Origin: Sulfitobacter mediterraneus
GTDB lineage: Bacteria > Pseudomonadota > Alphaproteobacteria > Rhodobacterales > Rhodobacteraceae
NCBI RefSeq assembly: GCF_003054325.1
Contig: NZ_QBKU01000010.1
Span: forward strand, 1-64,000
Direction of reading: 5' to 3'
Length of the DNA stretch: 64,000 nucleotides
The notes beneath the pieces were generated by a model, which did not search any database, was not told the origin of the DNA, and worked only from the letters and a program-made list of their open reading frames with translations. The translations under genes were made by a program, and so were the position numbers. Positions 10,753 through 31,109 of the stretch are shown here, one piece after another (the stretch's first letter is position 1; the number at the start of each line of letters is the position of its first letter).

Positions 10753-11202
10753 TCAGCTGTGGTTCGCGAAGACCGAGGTCACCCCGTCGGAGCCAACAAG
10801 CAAGGTATCAAAAGTGTCTCCGGCCCCGGGACCGGCCATGCCGGGCGAACTCATCGGCATGCCGGGGACCGTCAACCCGCGTGCTACCGGTTGTTCTGCC
10901 AGCAGCCGATTGATGTCAGCGGCAGGCACGTGGCCTTCGATGAAATAGTCGCCTACGACCGCCGTGTGGCATCCAGCCAGTTCCGGTGCGATTTGCAGCC
11001 GATCTTTGAACGCCCAAAGTTGATCTTGATCGACATCCTGCGCCTCGACCGCGAACCCAGCCTGCCGGACATGATCAACCCAGGCGGAGCAGCATCCACA
11101 GGTTGGTGTTTTGAGCACCTTCAGAAGGGATGCCGTGTCAGCGGCAACGGGTAATGCCAGGGTGGCAGCCGCGCCTGTCATCAAAAATGTGCGTCGTTTC
11201 AT
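10753..11202 (-). CDS. DUF411 periplasmic metal-binding protein
   Basis: 149-residue DUF411 protein, a family repeatedly found with copper and metal resistance genes. An N-terminal signal sequence with KRR and a hydrophobic core (about 1-22) directs export. The metal motif TCGCC (C35, C37, C38) and the later GCHT and DYFIEGHVP segments are the family signature. It is the last gene of the TVP38-CDF-DUF411 operon, starting 11 bp after the CDF stop. It converges with the Crp/Fnr-type gene, 5 bp between stops. Probably a periplasmic copper chaperone or scavenger. Confidence 0.88.
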   Translation of the reverse strand: MKRRTFLMTGAAATLALPVAADTASLLKVLKTPTCGCCSAWVDHVRQAGFAVEAQDVDQDQLWAFKDRLQIAPELAGCHTAVVGDYFIEGHVPAADINRLLAEQPVARGLTVPGMPMSSPGMAGPGAGDTFDTLLVGSDGVTSVFANHS

Positions 11203-11213: not shown

Positions 11214-12221
11214 CTAGGAGTTGTCAGTGAGTTTAGCGTCGTGCGCCGCGCTGTCGAGCGGGTCTGCATGGGCGGCATGGGTGTCTGCGGCGGCGGGCGA
11301 CACGCGTTGGCCTTCCGGGAGCGTCACATCGAGATCCCGCGCGTGGCGCTCGTCGAGACACTCGGTTTCGAGCTGCAGCGTGACCATGTGAAACCCATAT
11401 TGTTCCGTCAGTCGATGATAGGCCCGGTTCAGCAGGTCCGCGGCCTCTGCGGGCACACCATGGCGGATATGGGCAGAAAATACGTGTTTGCCGCTGGTCA
11501 GTGTCCAGGCATGCACGTGGTGAACATCCAGAACTCCGTCCTGGCCGCGCAGGTCCGCCGTCACAGCCTCGAGATCCGTTCCCTCGGGCGTGCCTTCCAT
11601 GAGAATGTGGATCGCTTCTTTGATGACACCGACGGAGGCCCAGAGGAGAACCACCCCGAAGGCCATGCCGAGGATCGGGTCAATTGCCAGAAAGCCGGTG
11701 AACTCGATCACCAGAGCGGTGACAATGATCAGGAGACTGCCGACAAAGGTCTGGATGATATGCCAGAGCGCACCACGGGCATTCAGATCGTCCTTGCTCG
11801 ATTGCCACATCAGCCCCAGCGAGATCACCTCGGTGACCAGGCCACCGAAGGCGACCCAAAGCATGGGGCCTGTGGCCAGGTGAATCGGATTCCCGAGCCG
11901 CATCGCGCCCATCCCGATCACCAGAAGCGCCATGCCGAGAAGAAAGCCGCCATTCACCAGCGCCCCGATGATCTCGGCGCGGTACCAGCCGAAACTGCGC
12001 GCCGAATCCGCCGGGCGGCGGGCAATGCGCTGCGCGATGATCGCCACCAGAACGCCGCCAACCGCCGATAGGGTGTGAAACGCATCCGACAGGACGGCAA
12101 TCGAGCCGGTCCAGAGCCCCACAGCCAGTTCAATCACGAAATAGACACCCGTCAGCCAGGCGGAGATGACCAGCGCCTTGCCCGACGTGGGCATGTGTCC
12201 GGCGTGAGAATGGGATGCCAT
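11214..12221 (-). CDS. CDF-family cation efflux transporter
   Basis: 335-residue cation diffusion facilitator that would export a divalent metal in exchange for protons across the inner membrane. Six membrane helices are expected across about 15-225. The metal site in helix 2 is seen in SDAFHTLSAVGG, and HIIQTFVGS is at the helix 5 equivalent. A cytoplasmic C-terminal domain has HHVHAWTLTSGKHVFSAHI. The N-terminus is His-rich (MASHSHAGHM). ATG 12221 is chosen; the open frame extends upstream into the TVP38 gene but adds an unrelated tail. It is the middle gene of a CueR-type-promoter operon, so a role with copper is suggested although the family usually handles Zn, Co or Ni. Confidence 0.9.
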   Translation of the reverse strand: MASHSHAGHMPTSGKALVISAWLTGVYFVIELAVGLWTGSIAVLSDAFHTLSAVGGVLVAIIAQRIARRPADSARSFGWYRAEIIGALVNGGFLLGMALLVIGMGAMRLGNPIHLATGPMLWVAFGGLVTEVISLGLMWQSSKDDLNARGALWHIIQTFVGSLLIIVTALVIEFTGFLAIDPILGMAFGVVLLWASVGVIKEAIHILMEGTPEGTDLEAVTADLRGQDGVLDVHHVHAWTLTSGKHVFSAHIRHGVPAEAADLLNRAYHRLTEQYGFHMVTLQLETECLDERHARDLDVTLPEGQRVSPAAADTHAAHADPLDSAAHDAKLTDNS

Positions 12222-12222: not shown

Positions 12223-12885
12223 TCAGCTCTCTTTCCTTGTAGGGCGGCGTTCGCGCCAAATGGCGAAAAGCAGGGACAATGCGGTAAACCCGCCGAGCGC
12301 GACTGCCGTCCAGGTGGCGGTGCGGGCATCCCCGTTCATGGCCTCGCTTCCGAGATGCGCGAGAAGAAAACTCGCCGGGATGATTCCGGCCAGGGTCGCC
12401 AGCGCGAAGCGCCACAGATGCAGTTTACTCAGCCCGGCCGCATAACTGATCATGTCGAAGGAAAGAAACGGCAACAGCCGGCTTCCGAAAACCAGAAAAG
12501 TCAGGGTGTTCTGCGACCCGAGAAAGTACGGGCCTGTCTTTTGGCCGAAGTGGCGTTCGACGAAGGGTTGGCCGAGCCAACGAGCGAGGAGAAAGGCGCC
12601 GAGTGCCCCGAGTTCCGCACCGAGGACGACAAGTAGCGTCCCGAACGTGTGGCCATAAGCGGCGCCGGCAGCGAGCGCGATCGGGGCGGAGGGCAACGGA
12701 CTAGCAACGATTGCCGCCGTCATGAGCGCGACCACAAGTATGGGCCCCATAAGTCCCGCGGCATCGATCCAGCGGTCAAGGTCCTCACGTTCGGGAAGAT
12801 TGATGTCAAAGCCCAGAACATCCGGCAATGCTAGAACGGAGATCGCGAGCACCAGAAGGAGCAGTAAGGCAAGCCGAAACATCAT
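12223..12885 (-). CDS. TVP38/TMEM64 (VTT domain) membrane protein
   Basis: 220-residue inner-membrane protein of the TVP38/TMEM64 (DedA-superfamily) type. The signature is visible: a hydrophobic N-terminal helix, then PIALAAGAAYG, GAFLLARWLG and SRLLPFLSFDMISYAAGL, with two long hydrophobic stretches near the C-terminus. Family members are often encoded beside metal-resistance genes, with unclear transport roles. ATG 12885 is chosen over GTG 12897. It is the first gene of the operon, 60 bp downstream of the predicted transcription start of the CueR-type promoter. Its stop is one base before the CDF start. Confidence 0.85.
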   Translation of the reverse strand: MMFRLALLLLLVLAISVLALPDVLGFDINLPEREDLDRWIDAAGLMGPILVVALMTAAIVASPLPSAPIALAAGAAYGHTFGTLLVVLGAELGALGAFLLARWLGQPFVERHFGQKTGPYFLGSQNTLTFLVFGSRLLPFLSFDMISYAAGLSKLHLWRFALATLAGIIPASFLLAHLGSEAMNGDARTATWTAVALGGFTALSLLFAIWRERRPTRKES

Positions 12886-12951
12886 GGCCAACCCCACGGC
12901 TGCCTGGCGTCCTGTTCAGAGTTTTGTTGTCTCGCGCCTATCATGAGGCGT

Positions 12952-12982
12952 GACATAGGGCTTCCAGTCGCTGGAAGGTCAA
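12952..12982 (-). promoter_or_regulatory. CueR-type promoter for TVP38-CDF-DUF411 operon
   Basis: Minus-strand -35 TTGACC (12982-12977), a 19-base spacer containing the dyad TTCCAGCGACTGGAAG, and -10 TATGTC (12957-12952). The overlong 19-bp spacer with a centred inverted repeat is the hallmark of promoters untwisted by MerR/CueR proteins. Near-identical promoters precede copZ and copA. Confidence 0.85.
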
Positions 12983-12995: not shown

Positions 12996-13016
12996 GTTGA
13001 TACATTTTGCGACAAA
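12996..13016 (+). promoter_or_regulatory. shared box GTTGATACAT-N6-ACAAA, copy 1
   Basis: GTTGATACAT (12996-13005), six bases, then ACAAA (13012-13016). The same 15 defined bases recur at 16548-16568, upstream of the next gene block. This copy lies 45-65 bp before the BNR-protein start codon. It may be a response-regulator site or part of the promoter. Confidence 0.45.
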
Positions 13017-13060: not shown

Positions 13061-14362
13061 ATGACATGCCGAACGAAAACCAGAGATCATAGACGCTCGC
13101 AGGGCCTGCGAAGCGCGAAGGCTTTGTGCGGGCTCCTTGGTTTAGTGATCGCGGCGAGTGGCTTCGTGCTGCCGCAAGTCGGAACGGCTCAGACGGGTGC
13201 TGTACTTGTCGATCAGGTAGAAGACATTGTTCTGCCGTCGCTACCAGGAGCGCATGAACCGTCTCTTACGAGCCACGATGGCCTGCTCTACATGAGCTGG
13301 CTCGAGCACGAAGGGGATCAAACCAAAGTCATGATGGGCCGCCGGTCCGCGCAAGGCTGGTCCGAACCACGCCTCGTGCATCAGGGGTCCGATCTCTTTG
13401 TAAACTGGGCCGACTTTCCCGGTATCGCACTCTTCGACAATGGCACGATCGCGGTTCACTGGCTTCGTGAAATCGGCCCGTCGAGTTTTGACTATCAAGT
13501 CGAGATCGCGCTGTCGCGCGACGGTGGCGCCTCCTGGAGCGAACCGCTGATCCCCCATGAAGACAGGTCTTTTGCGCAGCACGGGTTCGTGTCGATGCTG
13601 CCTGCGGGTGCGGAGAGTCTGGCCGTCATCTGGCTTGATGGGCGCGCCTATGGTGCCGATCGCAGCGAAGCCTCCACGACGCCTGATGCCATGCAATTGC
13701 GGGCAACGACGCTGATAAGCGACGGCTCTCTCGGCCGCGACGTTGCCGTCGATCTACAGACCTGCTCCTGTTGCCAGACAAGCCTCGCCGCAACAGGGGA
13801 TGGCACCATACTCGCCGCTTACCGAGACCGGACGGATGGTGAGATTCGGGATATCTCCGTCGCGCGGCTGACAGTTGATGGATGGCAAAGGCCCGTGACG
13901 GTTCACAATGATGGGTGGGAGTTGGCGGGATGCCCGGTCAATGGTCCGGCAATTGCTGCGGATGGCCATGACGCGGCCGTCGCATGGTTCACCGGTGCAA
14001 ACGACCTTGCGGCTGTCAAAGTGGCCTTCTCTGACGACGCGGGCCGCAGCTTTGGTGCGCCGGTCCGGGTCGATCTCGGCAATCCCATGGGCCGGGTCGA
14101 TGTCGAACTGCTCGAGGACGGGACCGCGTTGGTGTCCTGGGTCGAATGGACCGGCGGGAATGAAGCGCTCATGCTGTGCCGGGCGGAAAGGGAAATCGGA
14201 TGTGTGGCACAGGAGGTGCTGGCGACAAATTCGGCGGGTGCTTCCGTAAACTTCCCAACCATGGCTCGACTAGGCCGCGACATCTTCATCGCGCGGACCC
14301 AGCCTGACGAGACGGGCGACCGCATCGCCATCCGCCGGGTAAGACTGACGGAGATCGACTGA
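13061..14362 (+). CDS. exported BNR/sialidase-fold protein with CSCC motif
   Basis: 433-residue exported protein, signal sequence about residues 24-45. The body is a beta-propeller with Asp-box repeats (SRDGGASWSEP, SDDAGRSFGAP) as in sialidase-fold proteins. A conserved cysteine patch TCSCCQTS is followed by AAYRDRTDGEIRDI and later GCPVNGPA. This looks like a metal or haem-site signature rather than a sialidase active site, so automatic annotation as exo-alpha-sialidase is probably wrong. ATG 13061 is chosen; an in-frame start at 13007 adds a segment with no signal character. It is the first gene of the plus-strand run, 2 bp before the response regulator. Confidence 0.75.
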   Translation: MTCRTKTRDHRRSQGLRSAKALCGLLGLVIAASGFVLPQVGTAQTGAVLVDQVEDIVLPSLPGAHEPSLTSHDGLLYMSWLEHEGDQTKVMMGRRSAQGWSEPRLVHQGSDLFVNWADFPGIALFDNGTIAVHWLREIGPSSFDYQVEIALSRDGGASWSEPLIPHEDRSFAQHGFVSMLPAGAESLAVIWLDGRAYGADRSEASTTPDAMQLRATTLISDGSLGRDVAVDLQTCSCCQTSLAATGDGTILAAYRDRTDGEIRDISVARLTVDGWQRPVTVHNDGWELAGCPVNGPAIAADGHDAAVAWFTGANDLAAVKVAFSDDAGRSFGAPVRVDLGNPMGRVDVELLEDGTALVSWVEWTGGNEALMLCRAEREIGCVAQEVLATNSAGASVNFPTMARLGRDIFIARTQPDETGDRIAIRRVRLTEID

Positions 14363-14364
14363 CC

Positions 14365-15087
14365 ATGTCCGCCCCGCCACATATCCTGGTGGTCGATGAC
14401 CATGCCGAAATTCGGCAGTCGGTCACACGCTATCTGCAGAAAAACGGGATGCAGGCCACCGGTGCGGGCAACACGTCCGAAATGGATAACCATCTGGGCA
14501 AGGAAACCATCGATCTGATCGTGCTGGATATCATGATGCCCGGAGAAGACGGTCTGGCGGCCTGTGCGAGGTTGCGCCGCGAGCATCGGATGACCCCTAT
14601 CCTCATGCTCACCGCGCTCGGCGAAGATGATGATCGCATCAATGGGCTCGATACGGGGGCCGATGACTATCTGGCAAAACCTTTCAATCCACGCGAGCTT
14701 CTGGCCAGGATCAATGCCATTCTGCGCCGTGCGGGCGATGCACCACATGGCGGCACGCTTGCAGGAAAACGCGCGAGCTTTGCCGGAGTAACCTTTGACC
14801 ATGACGCCGGCCAGGTGACCAAACAGGACGGCACGGCAAACACGCTGACAACTGCAGAAGCCAAGCTGCTGTCGGTCTTTCTGGAACGTCCACGCGCCGT
14901 CATCAGTCGGGATGAACTGCTTGAGTTGAGCGCCGGGCGGATCGCTGGCCCATTCGATCGGACGATCGACAATCAGGTCTCGAGACTGCGCAGGAAGATC
15001 GAACCGGATGTCCTGCGACCGCGGATCATCACGACCGTGCGCAATGGCGGCTATTGTCTGAATTGCGACGTGGATCTGGAGAGCTGA
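14365..15087 (+). CDS. OmpR-family response regulator
   Basis: 240-residue response regulator. The receiver domain (about 5-120) has the acidic pair (VVDDH), the phosphorylatable Asp in IVLDIMMPGEDG, a Thr in MLTALGE and a Lys in YLAKPF. The C-terminal winged helix (about 140-235) contains LTTAEAKLLSVFLERPRAV and a recognition helix near DNQVSRLRRKIE. It overlaps the sensor kinase start by one base (TGATG), so the two are translationally coupled. The position at the head of the copper/cytochrome run suggests it controls that run. Confidence 0.92.
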   Translation: MSAPPHILVVDDHAEIRQSVTRYLQKNGMQATGAGNTSEMDNHLGKETIDLIVLDIMMPGEDGLAACARLRREHRMTPILMLTALGEDDDRINGLDTGADDYLAKPFNPRELLARINAILRRAGDAPHGGTLAGKRASFAGVTFDHDAGQVTKQDGTANTLTTAEAKLLSVFLERPRAVISRDELLELSAGRIAGPFDRTIDNQVSRLRRKIEPDVLRPRIITTVRNGGYCLNCDVDLES

Positions 15088-16526
15088 TGCGCATGGGGTT
15101 TCGCACGCAGATCGCCATCCTCGTTGTGTCGGTCCTGTTCGTCGCGCAAGTCGTCGGTTTTTGGTTATTCGTGGATGAACGGTCTCTGGCAGTACAGGCG
15201 GCAATCGGGAGCGAGGCAGCGGGGCGTGCGGCCAATGTTGCCCGCCTCATCGAAGCCGCCCCACCCGATTTACGCGATGAAATCGTCGCGGCGGCGACCT
15301 CGCCGCTGGTGCGCTTCGAACTTGGTGATACGCCGTCAGTCACACATACACATCATGACGAGAACGGTGCCGTAGAGGCCCGAATTCGCGCGCTTTTGAA
15401 CGATGGTTACAGTCGGGACATCCGTGTCGAGGTCCATGAAATCGAACAGGGTCTTCTCCCGTTGCCGAACCTATCGCCGGAAATGGCCGAGATGCACGCC
15501 GAAATGATGCGAGGACGTTTGGCGGCGATCGAAATGGAGGTATCGATCGCAATCGCGGGTGGCCGCTGGTTGAACGTCGCAACAAGGTTCGAGCGTCCGC
15601 CGATCCAGTGGTCCTGGGCGTCCACGCTGTCATTTGTGCTGACGTCGGTAGTGCTGCTCCTGGCCGTATTCTGGTTTGTTCTGACGCGCTTGACGCGCCC
15701 TCTGAACGAGCTCGCGGCATCTGCGGAGGAATTCGGGCGCGGGGGAGGGCAGGGGTCGATTGCGCCTGTCGGTCCGACAGAAGTTCGGGATCTGACGATT
15801 GCCTTCAACGACATGCAGGCGCGCCTTGCGCGTTTCGTCACGGACCGCACCCAAATGCTTGCGGCACTTGCGCATGACCTGCGGACACCCTTGACAGCAC
15901 TGCGGGTCCGGGCCGAAATGGTAGATGATCCCGAGACCAAAGACGGGATAGCGACATCGCTCGAGGAAATGCAGGAGATGGTCGAAGCCACGCTCGCCTA
16001 TGCCCGCGGCGTGGGGCAAGACGAAGAGTTGCAGAGTCTCGACGTGGCGGAATATCTCTCTGAACTCCAAAAGAGCACACAGGGCGAACTCGATCTGCAA
16101 ATGGGACCCGGGGCGGTGGTCCAGATCAAGCCTTTGGCCATGCGGCGCGCACTGCGCAATCTGATCGACAATGCCCAACGTTACGGGCGCAGCCCCGTTC
16201 TTTCGTGGGATGTGTCTGATGCGGGCGTCGAAATACGGGTCGACGATTTTGGGCTAGGAATCCCTGAAAATCGCATTAGAGACGTGTTCCAGCCCTATCA
16301 GCGGATCGAACAATCCCGATCTCTTGAAACAGGCGGTCACGGGTTGGGGCTCTCCATTGCGCGCAGTATCGTGCTGGAGCATGGCGGTACCATAGACTTG
16401 TCTAACCGCGATGAAGGTGGGTTGCGCGCTCGCGTTGTGCTGCCTCTGACCGGCACGTCCGACGTCGGGGAGCGCTTGGATCGGGGATTTGACGACCCAC
16501 TGCAGGTGCCAGGACACGGGACCTGA
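15087..16526 (+). CDS. sensor histidine kinase (EnvZ/CpxA-like)
   Basis: 479-residue membrane kinase. Two transmembrane helices (about 8-28 and 175-200) enclose a periplasmic sensor region of about 145 residues. That region has His- and Met-containing stretches (THTHHDE, MAEMHAEMM) which could bind copper. Then come a HAMP domain, the phospho-acceptor helix (ALAHDLRTPLTALR) and an ATPase domain with N box (NLIDNAQRYG), G1 (VDDFGLGIP) and G2 (GGHGLGLSIA). ATG 15087 is chosen because it overlaps the regulator stop. The 120 bp after it hold an FNR-like box and start the next gene block. Confidence 0.92.
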   Translation: MRMGFRTQIAILVVSVLFVAQVVGFWLFVDERSLAVQAAIGSEAAGRAANVARLIEAAPPDLRDEIVAAATSPLVRFELGDTPSVTHTHHDENGAVEARIRALLNDGYSRDIRVEVHEIEQGLLPLPNLSPEMAEMHAEMMRGRLAAIEMEVSIAIAGGRWLNVATRFERPPIQWSWASTLSFVLTSVVLLLAVFWFVLTRLTRPLNELAASAEEFGRGGGQGSIAPVGPTEVRDLTIAFNDMQARLARFVTDRTQMLAALAHDLRTPLTALRVRAEMVDDPETKDGIATSLEEMQEMVEATLAYARGVGQDEELQSLDVAEYLSELQKSTQGELDLQMGPGAVVQIKPLAMRRALRNLIDNAQRYGRSPVLSWDVSDAGVEIRVDDFGLGIPENRIRDVFQPYQRIEQSRSLETGGHGLGLSIARSIVLEHGGTIDLSNRDEGGLRARVVLPLTGTSDVGERLDRGFDDPLQVPGHGT

Positions 16527-16547
16527 CCAGGCATTCCTGATGCGGTG

Positions 16548-16568
16548 TTGATACATATCATTACAAAA
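16548..16568 (+). promoter_or_regulatory. FNR-like box and shared box GTTGATACAT-N6-ACAAA, copy 2
   Basis: TTGAT-ACAT-ATCAT (16549-16562) matches the FNR consensus TTGAT-N4-ATCAA at 9 of 10 positions. The same stretch is the second copy of the box seen at 12996-13016. It lies about 90 bp before the L,D-transpeptidase start codon, in the only sizeable gap (16527-16646) of the plus-strand run. It is the probable control point for the transpeptidase-cytochrome-oxidase block. Confidence 0.55.
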
Positions 16569-16646
16569 AACCAAAGCGCCAAACGTTCCTGAAATCTTCC
16601 ATATCCGATAGAAAACAAGGCATTCGACATGGAATGAGGCAGAACC

Positions 16647-17219
16647 ATGCAATCAAGAAACCGATTCCTGATGTCCAGACGCGCGTTCGCGGGCGGTTTG
16701 GGTACAACACTCCTATTTGCTCCGTCCGTTGTTACCGCTGAGACCGCTGAGCCAGTTCGACGGAACGTCTCGTCCTTTCGTACCCACGCTTGGGAAGACC
16801 ATTTCGACACCCTCGGGGTTGGGCTGATCATCTCGGATACGTCGTCGAAGGTCCTCCAGCATTGGACCGCTGACGGAGAGATGCGTCTCTACCCGACGTC
16901 TGTTCCGATCTCGGATGAACTGACGCGGCGCGGCTATACAGAAGTTGTCGAGAAGCGCGAGAACCCGAGTTGGGCGCCGACGCCATCCATGCGCGAACGC
17001 AACCCTGAATGGCCACTGCGCATTCCGGGCGGTGATCCAGCCAATCCGCTTGGCACGCGCGCCCTTTATCTTTCATGGCAGTATTACCGGATTCACGGCA
17101 CGCAAGACACGCGCAAGATCGGCCGTCGCTCATCGAATGGCTGCATCGGTCTTTACAATGAACACATCGAAGAGGTGTTTGATCGCGTCCCGGTCGGCAC
17201 GCAGGTCAAACTGGTCTGA
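16647..17219 (+). CDS. L,D-transpeptidase (YkuD domain), exported
   Basis: 190-residue periplasmic L,D-transpeptidase that would form 3-3 peptidoglycan cross-links or attach proteins to peptidoglycan. The N-terminus carries a twin-arginine-like signal (MSRRAFAGGLGTTLLF). The YkuD core runs from about 55 to 190. The catalytic region is IHGTQDTRKIG...SSNGCIGL, with C166 the nucleophile and the His about 18 residues earlier. The usual Arg two residues after Cys is Gly here. The stop overlaps the next ATG by one base (TGATG), so it is coupled to the cytochrome gene. Being first in a block with copper genes is notable because copper ions inhibit L,D-transpeptidases in E. coli. Confidence 0.88.
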   Translation: MQSRNRFLMSRRAFAGGLGTTLLFAPSVVTAETAEPVRRNVSSFRTHAWEDHFDTLGVGLIISDTSSKVLQHWTADGEMRLYPTSVPISDELTRRGYTEVVEKRENPSWAPTPSMRERNPEWPLRIPGGDPANPLGTRALYLSWQYYRIHGTQDTRKIGRRSSNGCIGLYNEHIEEVFDRVPVGTQVKLV

Positions 17220-17653
17220 TGGGACGATACACTCTCATCGCGGTTGCTCTGACAGCATTGCTGGGCTTGGGTTTTTGGTGGTCGGGACAAGGCGATGTGC
17301 CGGATGTTGCGGCGGGTACAGAAAGAATTGGCCCAGCAATGGTCGATGTCGCAGTGCCGAAGACGCTTTCGGCGAACGCGGAAATCGGCAAAATGGCCTT
17401 CGAGGCAAAATGCGCGGCCTGTCATGGCGCGAATGCGGCCGGACAGGATGGCGTCGCACCTCCCCTCGTGCATAAGATTTACGAACCGAGCCACCACGGC
17501 GACGCGGCATTTCTTCTGGCGGCCAAGAATGGCGTCCGCGCGCACCATTGGCGCTTTGGAAACATGCCCCCTGTCGAAGGCGTGACCGACGGTGATGTGA
17601 AAATGATCGTGGCCTACGTCCGCGAATTGCAGAGAGCGAACGGGATCAATTGA
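17219..17653 (+). CDS. membrane-anchored monohaem cytochrome c
   Basis: 144-residue class I cytochrome c. An N-terminal hydrophobic segment (about 4-22) without a clear cleavage site probably anchors it to the inner membrane. Haem is attached at C65-AAC68-H69, and the distal Met is likely the one in GNMPP near residue 115. A periplasmic electron carrier. It is tightly packed: it overlaps the L,D-transpeptidase stop, and its own TGA is directly followed by the ATG of the small lipoprotein. The electron partner is unknown; the multicopper oxidase downstream is a candidate. Confidence 0.88.
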   Translation: MGRYTLIAVALTALLGLGFWWSGQGDVPDVAAGTERIGPAMVDVAVPKTLSANAEIGKMAFEAKCAACHGANAAGQDGVAPPLVHKIYEPSHHGDAAFLLAAKNGVRAHHWRFGNMPPVEGVTDGDVKMIVAYVRELQRANGIN

Positions 17654-17896
17654 ATGAGTTGGACTTCCGTATCAATTGTGTTGACAACATCTGTCGTCGC
17701 TTTTGTAGCCGCAGGGTGCACGCCGATGGGGCGAGGACCACACCATCAATACGAGCCCACTCATGACCGGGGGCCGCACTACGGATATGGCTCGCTATGC
17801 GCGGAGTACTCAGGGGACTTTGGGCACCGCGGCGGAGGTCCAAACGCGGCACGTGGACCAGTGGCCGAAAATCATCCGTGTTGGGAAGAAACATAA
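17654..17896 (+). CDS. small His-rich lipoprotein
   Basis: 80-residue predicted lipoprotein. A hydrophobic signal with lipobox VAAGC (Cys about 22) is followed by a short mature peptide rich in His, Gly, Tyr and Pro (GRGPHHQYEPTHDRGPHYG), with two further Cys. No known domain. The ATG directly abuts the preceding cytochrome stop and the lipobox is well formed, so I regard it as real. His-rich composition in this setting suggests metal binding at a membrane surface. Confidence 0.65.
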   Translation: MSWTSVSIVLTTSVVAFVAAGCTPMGRGPHHQYEPTHDRGPHYGYGSLCAEYSGDFGHRGGGPNAARGPVAENHPCWEET

Positions 17897-17940
17897 TCCA
17901 AGGTTGGAGCCAGAAAACCTTTTGAAACAAGGAGAAACCG

Positions 17941-18537
17941 ATGCGCCTTAGAATTGTAATGGCTGCGTTTTCGCTAACAACAATTGGCATCGCCGCCTTT
18001 GCCCATTCCGGCGCAACTGGGGTGATGAAGGAGCGGATGGATGCTATGGGCGAAATGGGCGAGGCCATGAAGCGCCTTACGCCCATGTTGCGTGGCCAAA
18101 CCGCATATGACCCGGACGTCGTGCGCAACGCGGCTGACACAATGGTCCGTCACGCTGGCACCCAGATGACCGAGCTGTTCCCGGAAGGGTCAAATGGAGC
18201 CCCGTCGGAGGCGCTCGACGCGATCTGGGAGGATTGGGAAGAGTTTGCTGCTCTGGCTGAAGCCCTACGATCCAGTGCTGAGGGCATGAAGCTGGCCGCG
18301 GAAAATGGCCTTGCCGGCCCCGGGGACATGCCCGGTGGCGGTATGATGGGGACCGGTCAGACCATGATGGGTAGCGGCCAGGGGATGATGGGAACGGGTC
18401 AAGGCATGATGGGTGGCACGCCAGGACAGATGATGACCACCGAAATGCTGGCGGAGATGCCCGTCAATGCCGGGTTCATGGCCGTGACGCAGACGTGTTC
18501 GGCCTGTCATCAGAAGTTCCGGGCTGAGGAAAACTGA
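17941..18537 (+). CDS. cytochrome c'-type protein with Met-rich insertion
   Basis: 198-residue exported cytochrome of the c' (four-helix) class. A signal peptide (about 1-21, ending AFAH) is followed by helices containing GVMKERMDAMGEMGEAMKRL. Haem binds at the C-terminal C186-SAC189-H190, as expected for the class. Cytochromes c' are about 150 residues. The extra length is a Gly-Met-rich insert (about 132-165) built of repeated GMMGTGQ-like units just before the last helix. Methionine-rich loops of this kind bind Cu(I) in other proteins. A strong AAGGAG site precedes the ATG. The family binds nitric oxide or protects against it. Confidence 0.85.
   Translation: MRLRIVMAAFSLTTIGIAAFAHSGATGVMKERMDAMGEMGEAMKRLTPMLRGQTAYDPDVVRNAADTMVRHAGTQMTELFPEGSNGAPSEALDAIWEDWEEFAALAEALRSSAEGMKLAAENGLAGPGDMPGGGMMGTGQTMMGSGQGMMGTGQGMMGGTPGQMMTTEMLAEMPVNAGFMAVTQTCSACHQKFRAEEN
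18343..18417 (+). repeat. short tandem repeats coding the GMMGTGQ Met-rich loop
   Basis: About three to four imperfect units of 24-27 bases encode GMMGTGQT-, MMGSGQ-, GMMGTGQ- and GMMGG-type peptides within the cytochrome c' gene. The repeats are in frame and give the protein a flexible methionine-rich loop, which could vary in copy number by slippage. Confidence 0.65.
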
Positions 18538-18540
18538 CGC

Positions 18541-19446
18541 GTGCGGTTGCTGTTCCGGGGACTCCTAATGGCTGCGACTGTTGGCGTGACGGGAGGCATA
18601 GCCCTCGTTGCATGGCCAATCGGGATCGAGCCGCCTGAGTCACTCGAGGTCCTCGAAGGCGACGTGGATCGCGGGGCATATCTGGCGCGCGCTTCTGGAT
18701 GCATTGCGTGCCATAGCAATTTCGAAGCCGGAGGCGCACCGCTGGCCGGGGGCGCACCGCTTGAGACAGACTTCGGAACCTTTTATCCGCCGAACCTGAC
18801 AACCGATCCCGATCACGGGATGGGAGACTGGACGATCTCCGACTTTGCGCGCGCCGTCCGGCAGGGCGTATCGCCGGAGGGTGAGCCGTACTACCCCACA
18901 TTCACCTATCCGTTCTACGCGCAGTTCTCAGATCAGGACATCGCCGATCTCTGGGCGGCTTTTCAGACCGTTCCTGCGGTTCCGGAACCGTCACCAATTC
19001 ACGATGCCAGTTTTCCATTCGATCAACGTTGGGGGCTGAAGCTTTGGCGGGCCACATATCTGTCGGAGCCGGACACCGATCCGGTTGAAGGCCGCAGCGA
19101 TGTCTGGAACAGGGGCAAGTGGCTGGTAAGAGGGGCTGCGCACTGCGGCGCTTGTCACACGGACCGAAACTTTGCCGGGGCCCGTATTACAGACCGAACC
19201 TTCGCCGGAAACGACAGCCTGCCGGGCGGCAAAAGCGCGCCCTCGATCCTGCATGCGGATTTGCAGGCCGCTGGTTGGGACGCAGACAGCTTGGCCTATG
19301 CATTACGCAGCGGGATCACGCCAGAGGGTGATGTGTTCGGCGGCAGTATGGCGGAAGTCGTGAATTACGGAACGGCGTTTCTGACCGATGCTGACCTTGC
19401 CGCCATGGCCACTTACATCCTGGACAACGACCTGTCCGAGAATTGA
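18541..19446 (+). CDS. diheme cytochrome c
   Basis: 301-residue exported or anchored cytochrome with two class I haem domains: C54-IAC57-H58 and C202-GAC205-H206. The N-terminus has a hydrophobic stretch (about 5-25). The layout (NLTTDPDHGMGDWT after the first haem, later FGGSMAEV) resembles cytochrome subunits of periplasmic alcohol, aldehyde or gluconate dehydrogenases. Those usually have three haems, and no such dehydrogenase is adjacent. The start is GTG 18541, 3 bp after the cytochrome c' stop. A likely electron conduit in the copper/oxidase block. Confidence 0.87.
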   Translation: MRLLFRGLLMAATVGVTGGIALVAWPIGIEPPESLEVLEGDVDRGAYLARASGCIACHSNFEAGGAPLAGGAPLETDFGTFYPPNLTTDPDHGMGDWTISDFARAVRQGVSPEGEPYYPTFTYPFYAQFSDQDIADLWAAFQTVPAVPEPSPIHDASFPFDQRWGLKLWRATYLSEPDTDPVEGRSDVWNRGKWLVRGAAHCGACHTDRNFAGARITDRTFAGNDSLPGGKSAPSILHADLQAAGWDADSLAYALRSGITPEGDVFGGSMAEVVNYGTAFLTDADLAAMATYILDNDLSEN

Positions 19447-19455
19447 GAGTTATCG

Positions 19456-20844
19456 ATGACCCTGAACCTTAGCCGCAGAAAGTTTATCGCCGCAGGTGCC
19501 GCGCTCGCAACGCTTGGCGCAGGGCGTGGCTGGGCAGCCACCCCGATCGACCTGCACACGCGGGTCGCCGATGTCCAGCTTCTACCAGAGAAGTATGGGC
19601 AGACCCGCATCTGGGGTTTTGAAGGAAGGGCGCCGGGTCCGGAAATCAGGGTGGCGCAAGGCGCGCGCGTTCAAAGGCGTCTGATCAATGACTTGCCCGA
19701 CGCGACCTCCACCCACTGGCACGGTATCCGCATCGGCAACGCGATGGATGGAGTTGCAGGTCTCACCCAGGACGCCATCGCGCCCGGTGCATCGTTTCAG
19801 TACGACTTCGTGGCACCTGATGCGGGCACCTATTGGTACCACGCACACAACCGGTCGTTCGAACAGGTAGCACGCGGCCTTCATGGCGCGCTGATCGTCG
19901 AAGAGCCGGAGCCGATTGATATCGACCGTGACGAGGTTCTGATCCTTGACGATTGGCTTGTCGACCCCGAGACCGCCCAGATCGCAGATACCTTCAGGGC
20001 GATGCACGATCTGAGCCACGCCGGGCGGCTTGGCAACTACATCACCACGAACGCCACCTATAACCTCGCACTGCCGGTCAAGCGGCACGAACGTCTGCGC
20101 CTGCGCATGATCAACGCTGCAAATGCGCGCGTTTTTCAGCTGGCGCTCGATGGTCTCGAAGGCTGGATCGTTGCGCTCGATGGCATGCCTCTCGCCCAGG
20201 CAAGGCTGATCGATAGAAATATCGTCCTCGCGCCCGCGCAGCGGGTCGATCTGATCGTAGATGTGACCGCGGAAACTGGTGGCGCCGGACATATCGTGCA
20301 GATCGACCGCAACGAGAGTTTCTCGCAGGTGGCTTTCGAAGTGACTGGAGACGCTACTCGTGCGCGCCGGGACGCTCCCCGCGCGCTCCCTCCGAATGTC
20401 CATGCGATGCCCGATCTGGCCGAGGCCACAAAACTTGAATTGCTCATGCAGGGCGGTGCTATGGGCGGCATGATGGGTGCGATGATGGGCGGGCAGATGT
20501 CGTCCATGCGCGACATGATGCAGTCCGGCAACTTCTGGGCGTTCAACGGAGCGGTCGGCGGCATGGACGGCGCGCCGCTCGCAGCCATATCGCGTGGTGA
20601 GACGGTGCGTCTTAAGATCAACAATGATACGGCGTTCCCCCATGCCATGCATCTGCACGGAATGCACTTTCACGAGATTGCACCTGACGGGAGTCTTGGG
20701 ACGCTTCGGGATACAACGCTGCTGGATCGTGGCGAGGTCCGCGACATTGCGTTCGTGGCCGACAACCCCGGCAAATGGCTGCTGCATTGTCATATGCTGT
20801 CGCACTCAGCTTCGGGCATGATGACCTGGATCGACGTGGCATGA
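19456..20844 (+). CDS. multicopper oxidase (CueO/CopA-like), exported
   Basis: 462-residue three-cupredoxin oxidase, probably exported by the Tat system (SRRKFIAAGAALATL). All four copper motifs are present: THWHG (H87, H89), YWYHAHN (H129, H131), FPHAMHLHGMHFH, and HCHMLSHSASGMM, which gives the type 1 and type 3 ligands. A Met-rich loop (GGAMGGMMGAMMGGQM then MRDMMQ, about 332-358) sits where CueO carries its Cu(I)-binding insert. That supports cuprous oxidase activity in the periplasm. The stop overlaps the next ATG (ATGA). Its placement between cytochrome genes suggests electrons might be passed to or from c-type cytochromes. Confidence 0.92.
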   Translation: MTLNLSRRKFIAAGAALATLGAGRGWAATPIDLHTRVADVQLLPEKYGQTRIWGFEGRAPGPEIRVAQGARVQRRLINDLPDATSTHWHGIRIGNAMDGVAGLTQDAIAPGASFQYDFVAPDAGTYWYHAHNRSFEQVARGLHGALIVEEPEPIDIDRDEVLILDDWLVDPETAQIADTFRAMHDLSHAGRLGNYITTNATYNLALPVKRHERLRLRMINAANARVFQLALDGLEGWIVALDGMPLAQARLIDRNIVLAPAQRVDLIVDVTAETGGAGHIVQIDRNESFSQVAFEVTGDATRARRDAPRALPPNVHAMPDLAEATKLELLMQGGAMGGMMGAMMGGQMSSMRDMMQSGNFWAFNGAVGGMDGAPLAAISRGETVRLKINNDTAFPHAMHLHGMHFHEIAPDGSLGTLRDTTLLDRGEVRDIAFVADNPGKWLLHCHMLSHSASGMMTWIDVA

Positions 20845-21326
20845 ACCGGGGCACTGCCTTTGTCGGGGCTGTTTCTATCGCCATGATTGGAGCGGGGATC
20901 CTTTTCTGGATGGCCAATGCGGCAGGCTCGGATAGCGGGGTCATACCAAAAGACGTGGATATCACCGCGGGCCAAACCCTTTACGTCGAGAATTGTGCGT
21001 CCTGCCATGGTGCCAGTCTGGAAGGGCAGGAGAACTGGCAAAGCCCGGGCGAGGACGGTCGCTTACCGGCACCGCCGCATGACGAGACAGGACACACCTG
21101 GCATCACGCGGATCAGGTTCTTTTTGAGTACACCAAGCTTGGTGGCCGCGCACTGATGGCGGCTCAGGGCATGGAGTTCGATAGCAGTATGCCAGGCTTC
21201 GGGGATCAGCTTTCCGATCAGGAGATCTGGAACATTCTTGGATACATCAAGTCGACCTGGCCCGACCGAATACAGGAAATGCAAGCGGTGCGGACCGAAG
21301 GCGAGACACGGAAGAGGGAAAATTGA
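20841..21326 (+). CDS. membrane-anchored monohaem cytochrome c
   Basis: 161-residue cytochrome c with an N-terminal hydrophobic anchor (about 6-27) and haem motif C52-ASC55-H56. A Met in SSMPGF near residue 122 is the likely axial ligand. ATG 20841 is chosen because it overlaps the multicopper oxidase stop by four bases (ATGA); the open frame continues upstream but lies inside the oxidase gene. Translational coupling to the oxidase suggests the two proteins work together. The C-terminal tail after about 140 is charged. Confidence 0.88.
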   Translation: MNRGTAFVGAVSIAMIGAGILFWMANAAGSDSGVIPKDVDITAGQTLYVENCASCHGASLEGQENWQSPGEDGRLPAPPHDETGHTWHHADQVLFEYTKLGGRALMAAQGMEFDSSMPGFGDQLSDQEIWNILGYIKSTWPDRIQEMQAVRTEGETRKREN

Positions 21327-21327
21327 G

Positions 21328-22056
21328 ATGAAAATACTTTTGAGGCTGGTTTTGGCGTCGATCCTCGTTGTCCCACTTGCCGTTCAGGCCGACGGTCTGA
21401 GCGAAGATCGCGTCAAGGAACTCGTGCTTGAGGCTATTCGCGAGAACCCCGAGATCGTATTGGAGGCGGTTCAGATCATAGAGCAGCGCGAGCAGCAGCG
21501 TCAGGCAGCAGCCGCTGCAACCGTTCTATCCGAGAACCGCAATCTACTGGAAAACGACCCGAATGCGCCGGTGCTCGGCAATCCAGAAGGAGATGTGACA
21601 GTTGTCGAGTTCTTCGACTACAACTGTCCTTATTGCCGCCGCGTGAAGCCGCATATCGAAGCATTGCTGGAAGCAGACCCGAATGTCCGGCTGGTCTATC
21701 GGGAGTGGCCAATTCTGGGCGACGGGTCCGTCTTTGCCGCACGCGCGGCGCTCGCCGCACGCGAGCAGGGCAAGTACGAAGAGTTCCACTGGGCGCTTAT
21801 GGGAATGGCGGGACGGGCGGAAGAAGCTTCAGTCATTCAGATGGCCGAGCAGGTTGGACTGGATGTCGCGCAATTGCGGCGCGATATGGAGTCTCCAGAG
21901 ATTGATGCGCATATCGCAGCGTCGATGGAACTGAGCCGCGCGATCGGTTTCAATGGAACACCATCCTTCGTGATCGGTGATGCCCTCGTTCCCGGTGTCA
22001 TCGAGGCAGAACAGATGATTCGTCTCGCGGAAGAAGCGCGCGCAGCCGGCCAGTGA
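21328..22056 (+). CDS. DsbA-family thiol oxidoreductase, periplasmic
   Basis: 242-residue exported thioredoxin-fold protein. A signal peptide (about 1-19) and a charged helical region (20-75, a Com1/ScsC-like N-terminal extension) precede the DsbA domain. The active site is FFDYNCPYCRRV and the cis-proline loop is NGTPSFVIG. The N-terminal extension is reminiscent of ScsC and BdbD-type proteins, which protect copper-stressed thiols. It is the last gene of the plus-strand run. It starts one base after the preceding stop and converges with copZ, 2 bp between stops. Confidence 0.9.
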   Translation: MKILLRLVLASILVVPLAVQADGLSEDRVKELVLEAIRENPEIVLEAVQIIEQREQQRQAAAAATVLSENRNLLENDPNAPVLGNPEGDVTVVEFFDYNCPYCRRVKPHIEALLEADPNVRLVYREWPILGDGSVFAARAALAAREQGKYEEFHWALMGMAGRAEEASVIQMAEQVGLDVAQLRRDMESPEIDAHIAASMELSRAIGFNGTPSFVIGDALVPGVIEAEQMIRLAEEARAAGQ

Positions 22057-22058: not shown

Positions 22059-22253
22059 TTAGACCGGAGCCGCCTCGTATCCCGCAGACTTGATTGCTTC
22101 GATCACGGCCCCGTCAGTTTGGGATGTTGTGACTTCAACCGTCCGGGCATCGAGGTCGGTTGAAACCTGCGCTGTGGGATCGAGAACTGTGATTTCTTTG
22201 GTGATTGCAGCGGTGCAATGGCCGCAGCTCATGTTTGGGACGTGGAATTTCAC
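22059..22253 (-). CDS. copZ: CopZ-like copper chaperone (HMA domain)
   Basis: 64-residue single heavy-metal-associated domain with MSCGHC (C10, C13) binding Cu(I) for delivery to the CopA ATPase. GTG 22253 is chosen. It is preceded by AGGA, gives the standard HMA length, and lies about 20 bases after the transcription start predicted from the CueR-type promoter. Longer in-frame starts would run back through that promoter. Divergent from copA, with both promoters packed in the shared gap. Confidence 0.9.
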   Translation of the reverse strand: MKFHVPNMSCGHCTAAITKEITVLDPTAQVSTDLDARTVEVTTSQTDGAVIEAIKSAGYEAAPV

Positions 22254-22279
22254 ATGAGGTCCTTTCCTGACTTGGGCTC

Positions 22280-22310
22280 GAGATAGGGATTCCAGCAGGT
22301 GGAAGGTCAA
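22280..22310 (-). promoter_or_regulatory. CueR-type promoter for copZ
   Basis: Minus-strand -35 TTGACC (22310-22305), 19-base spacer with TTCCACCTGCTGGAA, -10 TATCTC (22285-22280). Geometry identical to the promoters at 12952-12982 and 22358-22388. The start of transcription would be near 22273. Confidence 0.85.
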
Positions 22311-22357: not shown

Positions 22358-22388
22358 TTGAGCTTCCAGTCACTGGAAGCCCTATATT
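22358..22388 (+). promoter_or_regulatory. CueR-type promoter for copA
   Basis: Plus-strand -35 TTGAGC (22358-22363), 19-base spacer containing the perfect dyad CTTCCAGTCACTGGAAG, -10 TATATT (22383-22388). A start of transcription near 22395 gives a short leader to the ATG at 22418 and rules out the longer upstream frame as the protein start. Confidence 0.87.
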
Positions 22389-22417: not shown

Positions 22418-24928
22418 ATGACTCAAAATCCGCAAGTCACTCTTGGCATCGAAGGCATGACCTGCGCGTCTTGCGTTGGTCGTGTGGAAAAGTCCCTTTC
22501 GGCGCTGGAAGGCATCTCCGATGTCTCCGTCAACCTCGCGTCTGAATCGGCACGGCTGTCCGTCAACGACCAGGCCCGTCTGCAAGAAGCCGCCCAAGCG
22601 CTGGAGACGCTGGGCTACCCTGCGCGGACTGCCAGGGTCACGCTCAACATCGCATCCATGTCCTGCGCGTCGTGCGTCGGGCGGGTCGATAAGGCGCTGG
22701 CTGACGTGCCAGGTGTCTTGTCCGTGACCGTGAACCTCGCCGCCGAGACAGCCGTCGTCGAATTCCTTGAAGGTCCAGTCGCGACTGCTGATCTGATGGC
22801 TGCGACAGCTGCCATTGGTTACCCCGCCGAGGTCGCGGAAGCGAACGCCAGCCAGTCGCGCGTAGAACGCAAGGCGGAAGAAGCGGATAAACTCCGCCGC
22901 AACGTCTTCTTTGCGGCGGCTCTGACACTCCCGGTCTTCGTTTTGGAGATGGGCGCACACCTTGTCCCGGCCTTTCATATGGCCATAGCGAACAGCATCG
23001 GGACCCAGACATCCTGGGTCATCCAGTTCGTTCTGACGACGATCGTTCTCTTCGGCCCCGGCAGGCACTTCTTTTTGAAGGGTATTCCGGCGCTGCTTCG
23101 CGGTGCCCCGGACATGAACAGTCTTGTCGCTGTAGGCACAGGTGCCGCTTGGACCTACTCGGTGGTCGCAACCTTCCTTCCCGGCCTGCTGCCTGTGGGC
23201 GTGCGCGCAGTATATTTCGAGGCCGCTGCTGTTATTGTCGTGCTCATCCTGATCGGACGCTGGCTCGAAGCCCGAGCGAAGGGACGGACTGGCGCGGCAA
23301 TCGAGTCGCTCTTGGGACTTCAGGTCCGTACCGCCCGCGTCCTGCGTGATGGTGAGACCGTAGAGGTTGACGTCGATGCGCTCGGCGTTGGCGACACGAT
23401 CCTCGTGCGCCCTGGCGAGCGGATTCCCGTCGATGGTGAGGTCGTTGATGGGACCAGCAACGTTGACGAGAGCATGATAACAGGCGAGCCTGTGCCCGTA
23501 ACGAAAGCCGCAGGCGCAACCGTCACCGGCGGCACGGTAAACGGCACCGGCAGCCTGACTTTCCGAGCGTCACGCGTAGGCTCTGACACGACGCTCGCGC
23601 AGATCATTCGAATGGTCGAAGAGGCGCAGGGCGCCAAACTGCCAATCCAAGGCCTGGTGGACCGGGTAACGCTTTGGTTCGTGCCCGCCGTCATGGCCCT
23701 GGCAGCCCTGACAGTTGTTGTTTGGCTATTGGTCGGCCCTGACCCGGCATTGACCTTTGCGCTGGTGGCGGGAGTGTCAGTGCTGATCATCGCCTGCCCC
23801 TGTGCCATGGGGCTTGCCACGCCGACCTCGATCATGGTGGGAACAGGACGCGCAGCCGAGATGGGTGTTCTGTTTCGCAAGGGAGACGCGCTTCAGGAAC
23901 TCTCAACCGTCAACGTCATCGCGCTTGATAAGACCGGAACGGTGACAGAGGGCAAACCAACGCTGACCTATGTCGTCGTCGCAGAAGGCTTCGACCGCGA
24001 ATCCGTCCTGGGTCTAATCGCTGCCGTGGAGGAGCAGTCAGAGCATCCGATTGCCGAGGCCATCGTCCGAGGCGCGCGCAGCGAAGGCATCACAGTTCCC
24101 TCTGCGTCCGGCTTCCGGTCAGTTACCGGATACGGGGTCGCGGCCATGGTCGATGGCAAAGAGGTCATGGTTGGTGCGGATCGCTACATGATCCGCGAGA
24201 ACGTCGACATCGCGTCCCTTGTCGACACCGAAAAAAATCTGGCCAGCCGTGGTCGCACCGCGCTCTACGCGGCCGTTGATGGCAAGTTGGCTGCCGTCAT
24301 CGCGGTTGCCGATCCGGTAAAACCCGCGAGCCGTGACGCAATTGCCGCTCTCCACGGCCGAGGCTTCCAGGTCGCCATGATCACCGGCGACAAGCAGGAG
24401 ACGGCCGAGGCCATCGCCCGCGAGACAGGGATCGACCAGGTCATCGCGGGCGTGCTGCCGGACGGAAAGGTCGCGGCGCTTGATGACCTAAGGGCAGGGG
24501 GCCGCAAGATTGCCTTCGTGGGCGACGGGATCAACGACGCGCCTGCGCTGGCGCATGCCGATGTGGGCATCGCGATCGGCACGGGCACGGACGTGGCGAT
24601 CGAGTCCGCCGATGTGGTGCTGATGTCAGGCGATCTGCGCGGCGTGGTGAACGCGGTCGAGGTGTCGAAGCGGACGATGTCGAATATCCGCCAGAACCTC
24701 GTTTGGGCGTTCGGCTACAACGTGGCCTTGATCCCGGTTGCTGCGGGTGTGCTTTACCCCGCCTTCGGGTTGCTGCTGTCTCCGGTTTTCGCCGCGGGCG
24801 CGATGGCGCTGTCCTCGGTTTCGGTCCTGACCAATGCGCTGCGCCTGCGCCGTATTGCCCCCGCGATGTATGAGCCGCCAAAGACTGAGACGCCACTCAC
24901 GCAGGCCCAGACCGAACCGGCAGAATAG
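22418..24928 (+). CDS. copA: copper-exporting P1B-type ATPase
   Basis: 836-residue Cu(I) pump in the inner membrane. Two N-terminal HMA domains (C16-xx-C19 in GMTCASC, C83-xx-C86 in SMSCASC) are followed by eight expected membrane helices. The ion-path motif CPC lies in [15 protein letters not shown], phosphorylation occurs in [10 protein letters not shown], the HP dipeptide in SEHPIAEA, and the hinge is [13 protein letters not shown] 22418 is chosen from the promoter position. The gene is followed after 13 bp by the CueR-type regulator, so the copper-induced transcript probably includes its own regulator. Confidence 0.95.
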
Positions 24929-24941
24929 GAGATTGAGCCCC

Positions 24942-25376
24942 ATGAATATTGGAGAAGTCGCGGAACGCTCTGGTATCCCGCCCAAGACCATTCGCTACTA
25001 CGAGGATATCGGTCTTGTTCGCCCGCAACGTAGTGGTAACGGCTACCGGGCCTTTCGCGAGATGGATGTGCACAAGCTTGCATTTCTCGGTCGTGCCCGC
25101 GCCCTCGGGTTTTCAATCGAGGACTGCCGGACCCTGCTCAGCCTCTATGAGGACGAAAGCCGCGAAAGCGCGCAGGTCAAGGCCATTGCAGAGGAACATC
25201 TGACCGCGATTGACGAAAAGATCACGCAGCTTCAGTCGATGCGAGAGACGCTCTCCCATCTGATAAAATCCTGCCACGGCGACCATCGTCCGGATTGTCC
25301 GATCCTGAGCGACCTGGCCGGCGACCCTACAGTCGTGCGCACCGTCTCTTCGCTTGCCAATAAGGCAGCAAAATAG
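24942..25376 (+). CDS. cueR: CueR/HmrR-type MerR-family copper regulator
   Basis: 144-residue MerR-family activator. The N-terminal winged helix (IGEVAERSGIPPKTIRYYEDIGL) binds DNA. A long dimerisation helix (about 80-108) follows, and the metal loop has C111 and C119 with seven residues between (CHGDHRPDC), the spacing of Cu(I)-sensing CueR. It lies 13 bp after copA on the same strand. Three promoters in the window have the 19-bp spacer and dyad this family acts on. The open frame extends upstream into copA, but ATG 24942 gives the family start. Confidence 0.93.
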   Translation: MNIGEVAERSGIPPKTIRYYEDIGLVRPQRSGNGYRAFREMDVHKLAFLGRARALGFSIEDCRTLLSLYEDESRESAQVKAIAEEHLTAIDEKITQLQSMRETLSHLIKSCHGDHRPDCPILSDLAGDPTVVRTVSSLANKAAK

Positions 25377-26105: not shown

Positions 26106-26157
26106 TGGAGTGCTCCGAGGGTGCGACATCTGGCCAAGACAACTGAGACTGGAACCG

Positions 26158-31025: not shown

Positions 31026-31109
31026 TGGTGGGCGACCCTGGAATCGAACCAGGCGTGCGTCTCCGCGAGGGAGTTACAGTCCCCTGCCACACCTTGCGGC
31101 CTGTCGCCC
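31026..31109 (-). tRNA. tRNA-Tyr (anticodon GTA)
   Basis: Minus-strand cloverleaf of 84 bases with encoded CCA. Acceptor GGGCGAC pairs with GTCGCCC; the anticodon arm has loop CTGTAAC. A long variable arm and T loop TTCGATT are present. The long variable arm and GTA anticodon identify tyrosine. Its 3' end faces the recombinase genes, the usual orientation for an island attached at a tRNA. Confidence 0.95.

Follow-up and report, generated by a model that had tools for sequence, protein, structure and literature searches.

Several described copper systems stand close to the gene block treated here, which is located at positions 13061..22056 of a 64,000-nt stretch of Sulfitobacter mediterraneus DNA (NZ_QBKU01000010.1, the whole stretch being called the window below) and surrounds a gene for a multicopper oxidase. 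The pcoABCD/copABCD systems with CopRS likewise have a periplasmic multicopper oxidase and a two-component regulator, and the CopC-CopD pair appears next to the oxidase in a sister variant of the block, but the block's oxidase is below the PcoA/CopA cut-off (TIGR01480, 181.3 versus 478.95), its regulator and kinase are below those of the heavy-metal families (TIGR01387, 128.6 versus 279.2, and TIGR01386, 113.3 versus 292.55), no CopB is found among the identified genes, and c-type cytochromes and an L,D-transpeptidase are added. With the E. coli Cue system (cueR, copA, cueO) the locus shares CueR, CopA and an exported multicopper oxidase, but the oxidase falls below the CueO cut-off (NF008205, 113.4 versus 525), and it lies in a unit with cytochrome genes that is preceded by a separate box and no CueR site. 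The cutFOG genes of Rhodobacter capsulatus also encode an alphaproteobacterial multicopper oxidase that protects against copper, and its deletion harms the c-type cytochromes under copper, whereas the operon is given as cutF-cutO-cutG with no cytochrome gene mentioned in the part of the report drawn upon (PMC8456105).

The DsbA-like protein of the block has a match to ScsC_N, and many relatives of the block have a DsbD-domain protein, as might be expected of an Scs (ScsBC) thiol system, but the match is below the cut-off (23.6 bits versus 25.8) and membership is not established. The oxidase of the Nitrosomonas ncgABC-nirK genes is of the two-domain type. It is found beside c-type cytochrome genes and the pairing of oxidase and cytochrome alone is therefore not new, but according to the part of the account cited that cluster is linked to a copper nitrite reductase and not to copA/cueR (PMC3603346). 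A connection between c-type cytochromes and the copper regulon has also been predicted in Vibrio, from cytochromes with candidate CueR sites, but the section of that paper used here describes no block of oxidase and cytochrome (PMC1526738). For the copper-island setting, the exchangeable cassette and the box presented below no description was found in the literature searched, which covered few subscription papers. Our preferred reading, to which we assign a probability of roughly one half (0.52), is that the block encodes a cytochrome-assisted periplasmic Cu(I) oxidase together with spare envelope parts, and that it supplies the periplasmic half of a copper-resistance island that is mobile. 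It is preferred because the oxidase and one cytochrome are so frequently coupled and because the cytochromes carry residues of a metal-binding type.

The oxidase, its cytochromes and the exchangeable slot

All eleven plus-strand open reading frames (ORFs) of the block are present, and the ORFs, Pfam families and haem motifs agree with the tightly packed genes and the families named in the original prediction. The gaps are, in gene order, 2, -1, 120, -1, 0, 44, 3, 9, -4 and 1 nt, and nine of the ten are thus below 50 nt, but a conserved box lies in the 120-nt gap in front of the L,D-transpeptidase, and the one compact block therefore probably consists of two transcription units, a single operon being judged unlikely. 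The first unit encodes a BNR/sialidase-like protein with CSCC (13061..14362, with a weak BNR_2 match of 25.9 bits, below the cut-off of 31.4), an OmpR-type response regulator (14365..15087, by Pfam) and a sensor histidine kinase (15087..16526, HAMP/HisKA by Pfam). The second begins with the L,D-transpeptidase (16647..17219, YkuD by Pfam, with a conserved Cys166), followed by an anchored monohaem cytochrome c, here cytA (17219..17653, Cytochrom_C, with the histidine pairs H92-H93 and H109-H110), a His-rich putative lipoprotein with no family by Pfam (17654..17896), a cytochrome c' with a Met-rich loop (17941..18537), an anchored diheme cytochrome c (18541..19446, two-haem Cytochrom_C), the three-domain oxidase (19456..20844; Cu-oxidase_3, Cu-oxidase and Cu-oxidase_2, all above cut-off), a second anchored monohaem cytochrome c, cytB (20841..21326, Cytochrom_C), and a DsbA-family protein (21328..22056, DSBA by Pfam). 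The four cytochromes contain, in gene order, 1, 1, 2 and 1 CXXCH haem motifs, five in total.

Relatives of the oxidase were found 488 times in genome contigs, and the best 80 of these 488 are the basis of all counts out of 80, where a gene is counted if the examined flanks of the oxidase contain a match to it of 50 bits or more. Since several of the 80 loci are near-copies of each other and contig ends truncate some, the counts do not represent independent events. The oxidase itself is present in 80, cytB in 78, the L,D-transpeptidase in 77, cytA in 74, CopA in 72, DsbA and CopZ in 70 each, CueR in 66, the cytochrome c' and the diheme cytochrome in 56 each, the kinase in 53, the regulator in 52 and a DUF411 protein in 39, followed by CDF (23), Crp (22), VTT (22), a protein here called the 9581-type (21), Rieske (10), BNR (8) and the His-rich lipoprotein (1). 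The recurrent core is thus transpeptidase, cytochrome, oxidase, cytochrome, DsbA, CopZ, CopA and CueR. The order is found in many genera, which clearly rules out the refuting case named with the original prediction, a synteny confined to this genome. The BNR protein, which immediately precedes the regulator in no more than 5 of the 80, and the His-rich lipoprotein are regarded as accessory since both are rare in the flanks of the relatives, and the gene list first proposed as the system has to be amended in this respect as well as by the conserved neighbours copZ, copA and cueR (22059-25376), which it omitted.

The oxidase belongs to the multicopper oxidase superfamily according to its domains and its copper ligands. 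H87, H89, H129, H131, H396, H399, H401, H444, C445, H446, H450 and M455 are invariant in 38 dereplicated sequences, the dereplicated alignments used here including the sequence from the window but neither sequences much shorter than it nor near-copies more than about 93% alike. The nearest solved relative is 4f7k, named Laccase (E 6.1e-126), and the relatives are of the laccase/CueO type. Translational coupling of the oxidase to cytB, expected from the original prediction, is borne out by an ATGA overlap, and the overlap, with gene starts picked by script, is 4 nt in 51 and 1 nt in 22 of the 78 loci with both genes, together 73 of 78. A broader set of 112 loci, kept out of 148 examined if the oxidase had at least 150 bits and at least 380 residues, has cytB within 200 nt downstream of the oxidase in 102 cases. 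No fusion of oxidase and cytochrome was seen in the 17 regions that were read, and no ORF matched the oxidase and cytB together. Fusions had been considered because several of the cytB matches fell in open frames about 490–610 residues long, but in five long ORFs Pfam recognized only the cytochrome domain.

A cytB relative is present in 165 of 296 genomes of the family, and for a wider sample 60 loci, one per genome, were picked among the matches listed, with E values between about 1e-55 and 1e-39. H80, H85, H88 and H89 of cytB are invariant in 39 dereplicated sequences, and all 61 of the wider relatives, also those from loci without an oxidase, have the four histidines, while an Asp/Glu after the motif is not conserved, a pattern demanding the final acid having failed in 25 of 60. 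H92, H93, H109 and H110 of cytA are kept in 36 dereplicated sequences and its histidine pairs in 28 of 28 wider relatives, 25 of them by pattern and three by eye, the pattern having failed there owing to neighbouring residues. The model of cytB (mean pLDDT 84.6) has an ordinary class I cytochrome fold that appears similar to CcoP, cytochrome cL and the haem domain of a haem-copper nitrite reductase; a Foldseek search with the model gave no match that was counted at E 0.001 or better. At L214 (514-3437, genome G303) a cytB-like cytochrome gene overlaps a copper ATPase (CopA) gene by 4 nt when longest-ORF starts are used, and no multicopper oxidase is seen nearby, which hints at a pair of CopA and cytochrome.

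Between cytA and the oxidase there is a slot with more than one filling. The cytochrome c' in it is assigned by Cytochrom_C_2 (88.6 bits versus 26.5) and a C-terminal CXXCH. Its loop contains 7–14 Met in 30 dereplicated sequences and is absent from the solved cytochromes c' compared, of which 1a7v aligns before and after the Met-rich insert, although weakly on the C-terminal side (5.4 bits). The slot holds cytochrome c' and diheme cytochrome together in 55 of the 80 loci, CopC and CopD in 10, neither in 15 and both in none, and neither cytochrome is ever found there singly; in the 112 loci the corresponding numbers are 62 with the cassette, 23 with CopCD, 27 with neither and none with both. 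A quick maximum-likelihood tree of the oxidase, built from 65 of the 112 after removal of same-label near-copies, needs 11 changes of the cassette label, at least 6 of them forced by starred branches, and 6 changes (at least 4 forced) of CopCD, the latter count leaning on long branches because two of the three, L278 and L256 (the third is L233), carry the CopCD label. Repeated exchange without co-occurrence suggests that the c'-diheme cassette and CopC-CopD may be interchangeable in function.

On another contig of the same genome (C4), a sister locus reads glutaredoxin-like, cytA, CopC, CopD, oxidase, cytB, followed by Crp and the 9581-type protein. CopC-CopD thus takes the place of two cytochromes there, and the four c-type cytochromes that the original prediction joined to the oxidase, although present in the block, represent one variant. 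CopC-CopD likewise separates cytA from the oxidase in several chromosomal loci, in addition to the 10 island-type loci, and because the sister locus and the chromosomal loci share it, the frame cytA-slot-oxidase-cytB is wider than the island, with CopC-CopD as one filling. On the tree, the oxidase of L112, a contig of a Porticoccus metagenome-assembled genome (MAG) labelled gammaproteobacterial (JAJFKD010000052.1), is very near that of a Rhodobacteraceae MAG (L088); the c' cassette is absent from the slot of L112, and transfer or MAG contamination might account for its position.

Regulation of the locus

Three CueR-type sites are located in the window, where 0.00 are expected, and there are four in the whole genome. 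The three read toward the VTT-CDF-DUF411 genes (12955..12982, minus strand, 0 mismatches), toward copZ (22283..22310, minus strand) and toward copA-cueR (22358..22385, plus strand). A direct control of the plus-strand block by CueR is therefore unsupported. Instead, both plus-strand units are preceded by a tandem box of the form G[A/T]TACA-N4-repeat, a GATACA-type box before the BNR-regulator-kinase unit (12999..13014, plus strand) and a GATACA/ATTACA box before the unit from L,D-transpeptidase to DsbA (16550..16565, plus strand), the former being a putative site of the block's own response regulator. With a looser version of the box 115 matches are found in 1.52 Mb of DNA from the relatives, and 102 of these are at most 300 nt upstream of a transpeptidase or regulator gene, against 2 for the reversed control. 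The box is found upstream of 58 of 76 transpeptidase genes and of 44 of 50 regulator genes, and four of the six regulator genes without it have a box before the upstream BNR gene instead. A strict box, TTGATACATN5KACAAA, matches exactly nowhere in the genome but at the two boxes of the block, and at seven more places with two mismatches, where the reversed control has one. The looser box gives 11 sites in the S. mediterraneus genome against 8 for its reversed control, and is thus unfit for prediction of a wider regulon.

In the sensor part of the kinase H137, M140 and M141 are invariant in 24 dereplicated sequences, which would fit metal sensing. The copper role that had been proposed for the block agrees with the adjacent copZ-copA-cueR genes, the CueR sites and the synteny conserved over many genera. 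Copper control of the island is well supported by the CueR sites and the recurrent box, and a control in two layers, by CueR and by the two-component system, is likely.

Island genes, boundary and spare envelope parts

Downstream of the block a CopZ-like copper chaperone (22059..22253, minus strand, best family scores below the cut-offs) is followed by the copper-translocating P1B ATPase CopA (22418..24928, plus strand; TIGR01511, 606.2 bits versus 397) and CueR (24942..25376, plus strand; TIGR02044, 161.7 bits versus 147.4). A second L,D-transpeptidase is encoded at 26110..26820 (plus strand), with flank matches in 76 of the 80 loci that are mostly cross-matches. At the other side of the block are, on the minus strand, genes for a VTT-domain membrane protein (12223..12897), a cation diffusion facilitator (CDF) transporter (11214..12221) and the DUF411 protein (10753..11202), a frequent partner, all three named from annotated relatives. 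The 9581-type protein (9581-10105), with no Pfam or NCBIfam match, adjoins a Crp-type regulator and recurs beside the island as well as beside the sister locus on C4. An orphan Rieske iron-sulfur protein (petA, second copy) is encoded at 8918..9478 on the minus strand (TIGR01416, 219.8 bits versus 97.4).

The window starts where the contig starts, and the island is thus seen from the side of a tRNA-Tyr gene only (31026..31109, minus strand), the 3' end of which forms the boundary. In a very close genome of the same genus (G022, with a neighbouring protein 99% identical) the similarity to the window begins at base 31026, with 90.7% identity over 2113 bp, and this is exactly the 3' end of the tRNA. 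In the 37.7 kb of G022 left of the junction the only matches at E 1e-10 or better are three more 47-bp copies of the tRNA end, which suggest repeated integration at this site. These copies, at 17171-17869 of L319, are spaced by 205 bp beside the intact tRNA. The S. mediterraneus genome has one 90% copy of the tRNA-Tyr end on another contig. A large serine recombinase gene, with sub-threshold CcrB-type matches, lies beside the island end (29151..30839, plus strand). A second species also has homologous DNA to the left of tRNA-Tyr.

In many marine Rhodobacterales the block is found again, on plasmids as well as other contigs. Related blocks are plasmid-borne in Roseobacter, Dinoroseobacter, Roseovarius, Phaeobacter and Tritonibacter, and likewise in Paracoccus, where transposases interrupt the block. 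Five of the six plasmid records have the transpeptidase, oxidase, cytB, DsbA, copA and cueR all together, and the sixth is broken by transposases, while cytA was not annotated in the Roseovarius plasmid block and gave no match there on searching. Plasmid 2 of Epibacterium mobile BBCC367 also carries the block, and the consulted part of a report on this strain lists multicopper oxidases and CopZ from copper-grown cells (PMC6308992). PEPIB2_172/173, named CueO, have no certain match to the block's oxidase, three oxidases being annotated in the examined stretch of plasmid 2, and are not used as proof. It is very likely from the gene content that the island protects against copper.

Some island genes seem to duplicate functions that copper damages, and one duplicates a Rieske protein. 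The island Rieske protein is 66% identical to the other copy in the genome (G000:C1), and two of the eight YkuD genes of the genome are located in the island. In the examined flank of 15 of the 80 relatives there is a ccmF; each of the 11 genomes examined out of these 15 has two or more ccmF matches, two of the four matches in one of them being pieces, and five comparison genomes without ccmF in the flank have 1, 1, 1, 2 and 1. S. mediterraneus has one ccmF, outside the window. Two papers, in the parts cited here, report inhibition by copper, one of L,D-transpeptidases in vitro (PMC11390936) and the other of the Ccm pathway (PMC8456105), and the island may thus carry spare copies of copper-sensitive envelope functions.

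Proposed mechanism and alternatives

In the cytochrome-assisted reading, cytosolic copper would act on CueR and turn on export by CopA and CopZ, a step supported by the sites and the identity of the genes. Periplasmic copper would be sensed by the two-component system, which might bind the tandem boxes and thereby activate its own unit and the unit from L,D-transpeptidase to DsbA. The multicopper oxidase and the membrane-anchored cytochromes would then jointly oxidise periplasmic Cu(I); the Met-rich loop of the cytochrome c' and the additional histidine sites of cytA and cytB could hold copper and pass an electron to haem, and the coupled cytB could exchange electrons with the oxidase, which would reduce O2. 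The c'-diheme cassette is an alternative to CopC-CopD in the genomic pattern and might also be its functional equivalent. The remaining genes would provide spare envelope functions, namely L,D-transpeptidases, a Rieske protein, a thiol-disulfide protein and, in relatives, Ccm. A further possibility, to be held tentatively, is that the system is wired through haem: Cu(I) bound to the Met-rich cytochrome c' and to the histidine clusters of the two anchored cytochromes would be oxidised by haem, electrons would leave through the coupled cytochrome to the oxidase or the respiratory chain, and the c'-diheme pair and CopC-CopD would be exchangeable front ends. If so, detoxification would be a small copper-fed branch of electron transport. 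The original prediction had put forward a wiring of Cu(I) oxidation to the cytochromes, or else an oxidase serving as electron sink, and what speaks for these proposals is the coupling, the conservation and the residues of a metal-binding type.

A number of observations weigh against the preferred reading. CueO-type enzymes need no cytochromes to oxidise Cu(I), and the Met-rich loop of the oxidase is variable, with 2–10 Met and a median of 3. Among the 60 wider cytB loci an oxidase is found within about 5 kb in 34, but 7 of these have only a distant one with 27–32% identity, CopA without oxidase is found in 5, and 21 distant relatives have neither within that distance. The survey indicates that cytB is often, though not always, a copper companion and that the oxidase is not needed everywhere; it weakens the case for a strict pairing and agrees with a direct handling of copper by the cytochromes. 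L234 (G113:C75), one of these five as is L214, has the transpeptidase, cytA, cytB, DsbA, CopZ, CopA and CueR with no oxidase between the cytochromes, so the cytochromes seem able to serve copper loci without it. Likewise the core appears to work without either cassette, since 15 of the 80 loci have neither. As to the box, its enrichment is partly built in because the very upstream sequences in which it was counted had served to loosen the pattern, 18 of the 76 transpeptidase genes do not have it, and 18 loci have it before the transpeptidase with no regulator in the examined flank, which implies a distant regulator or a weaker link between regulator and box. L234 can also be seen as a natural deletion variant.

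The main competing explanation, with perhaps one chance in three, is a plain CueO-like Cu(I) oxidase that uses O2 alone, with the cytochromes serving only as copper-tolerant spare carriers or copper sponges and not as redox partners. The complete ligand motifs and the laccase/CueO-type relatives would agree with this, as would the other island genes that resemble spare copper targets, L234 with both cytochromes and no oxidase, and the absence of an oxidase from 26 of the 60 wider cytB loci, but it does not readily explain why one and the same cytochrome is almost always coupled to the oxidase and adjoins it in the sister locus as well. That the oxidase might instead be a cytochrome c:O2 terminal sink is improbable; respiratory electrons would then be drained through the diheme cytochrome, cytA and cytB when copper disables the haem-copper oxidases, and Cu(I) would not be the main substrate. 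Such a role is suggested by the kinship of the diheme protein with cytochrome subunits of quinone-linked dehydrogenases, by the predicted CcoP-like and nitrite reductase-like fold of cytB and by the second Rieske protein, whereas in 25 of the 80 loci the slot is without the diheme cytochrome, and the copper proteins CopCD fill 10 of these. Still less probable is a laccase whose substrates would be manganese, iron or phenolics and whose acceptors would be the cytochromes; regulation by copper would then serve metallation only. The name of the closest solved relative points that way and a cytochrome is known in the MofA operon of Leptothrix, but genes for copper export and sensing often accompany the oxidase and CueR sites are adjacent, both of which speak for copper.

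A cytochrome-assisted Cu(I) oxidase would tie copper detoxification to electron transfer by c-type cytochromes, and would explain why cytochromes and a cell-wall enzyme are found within a copper island. It would also provide a defined gene set for the idea that bacteria keep spare, copper-tolerant versions of the envelope enzymes that copper poisons.

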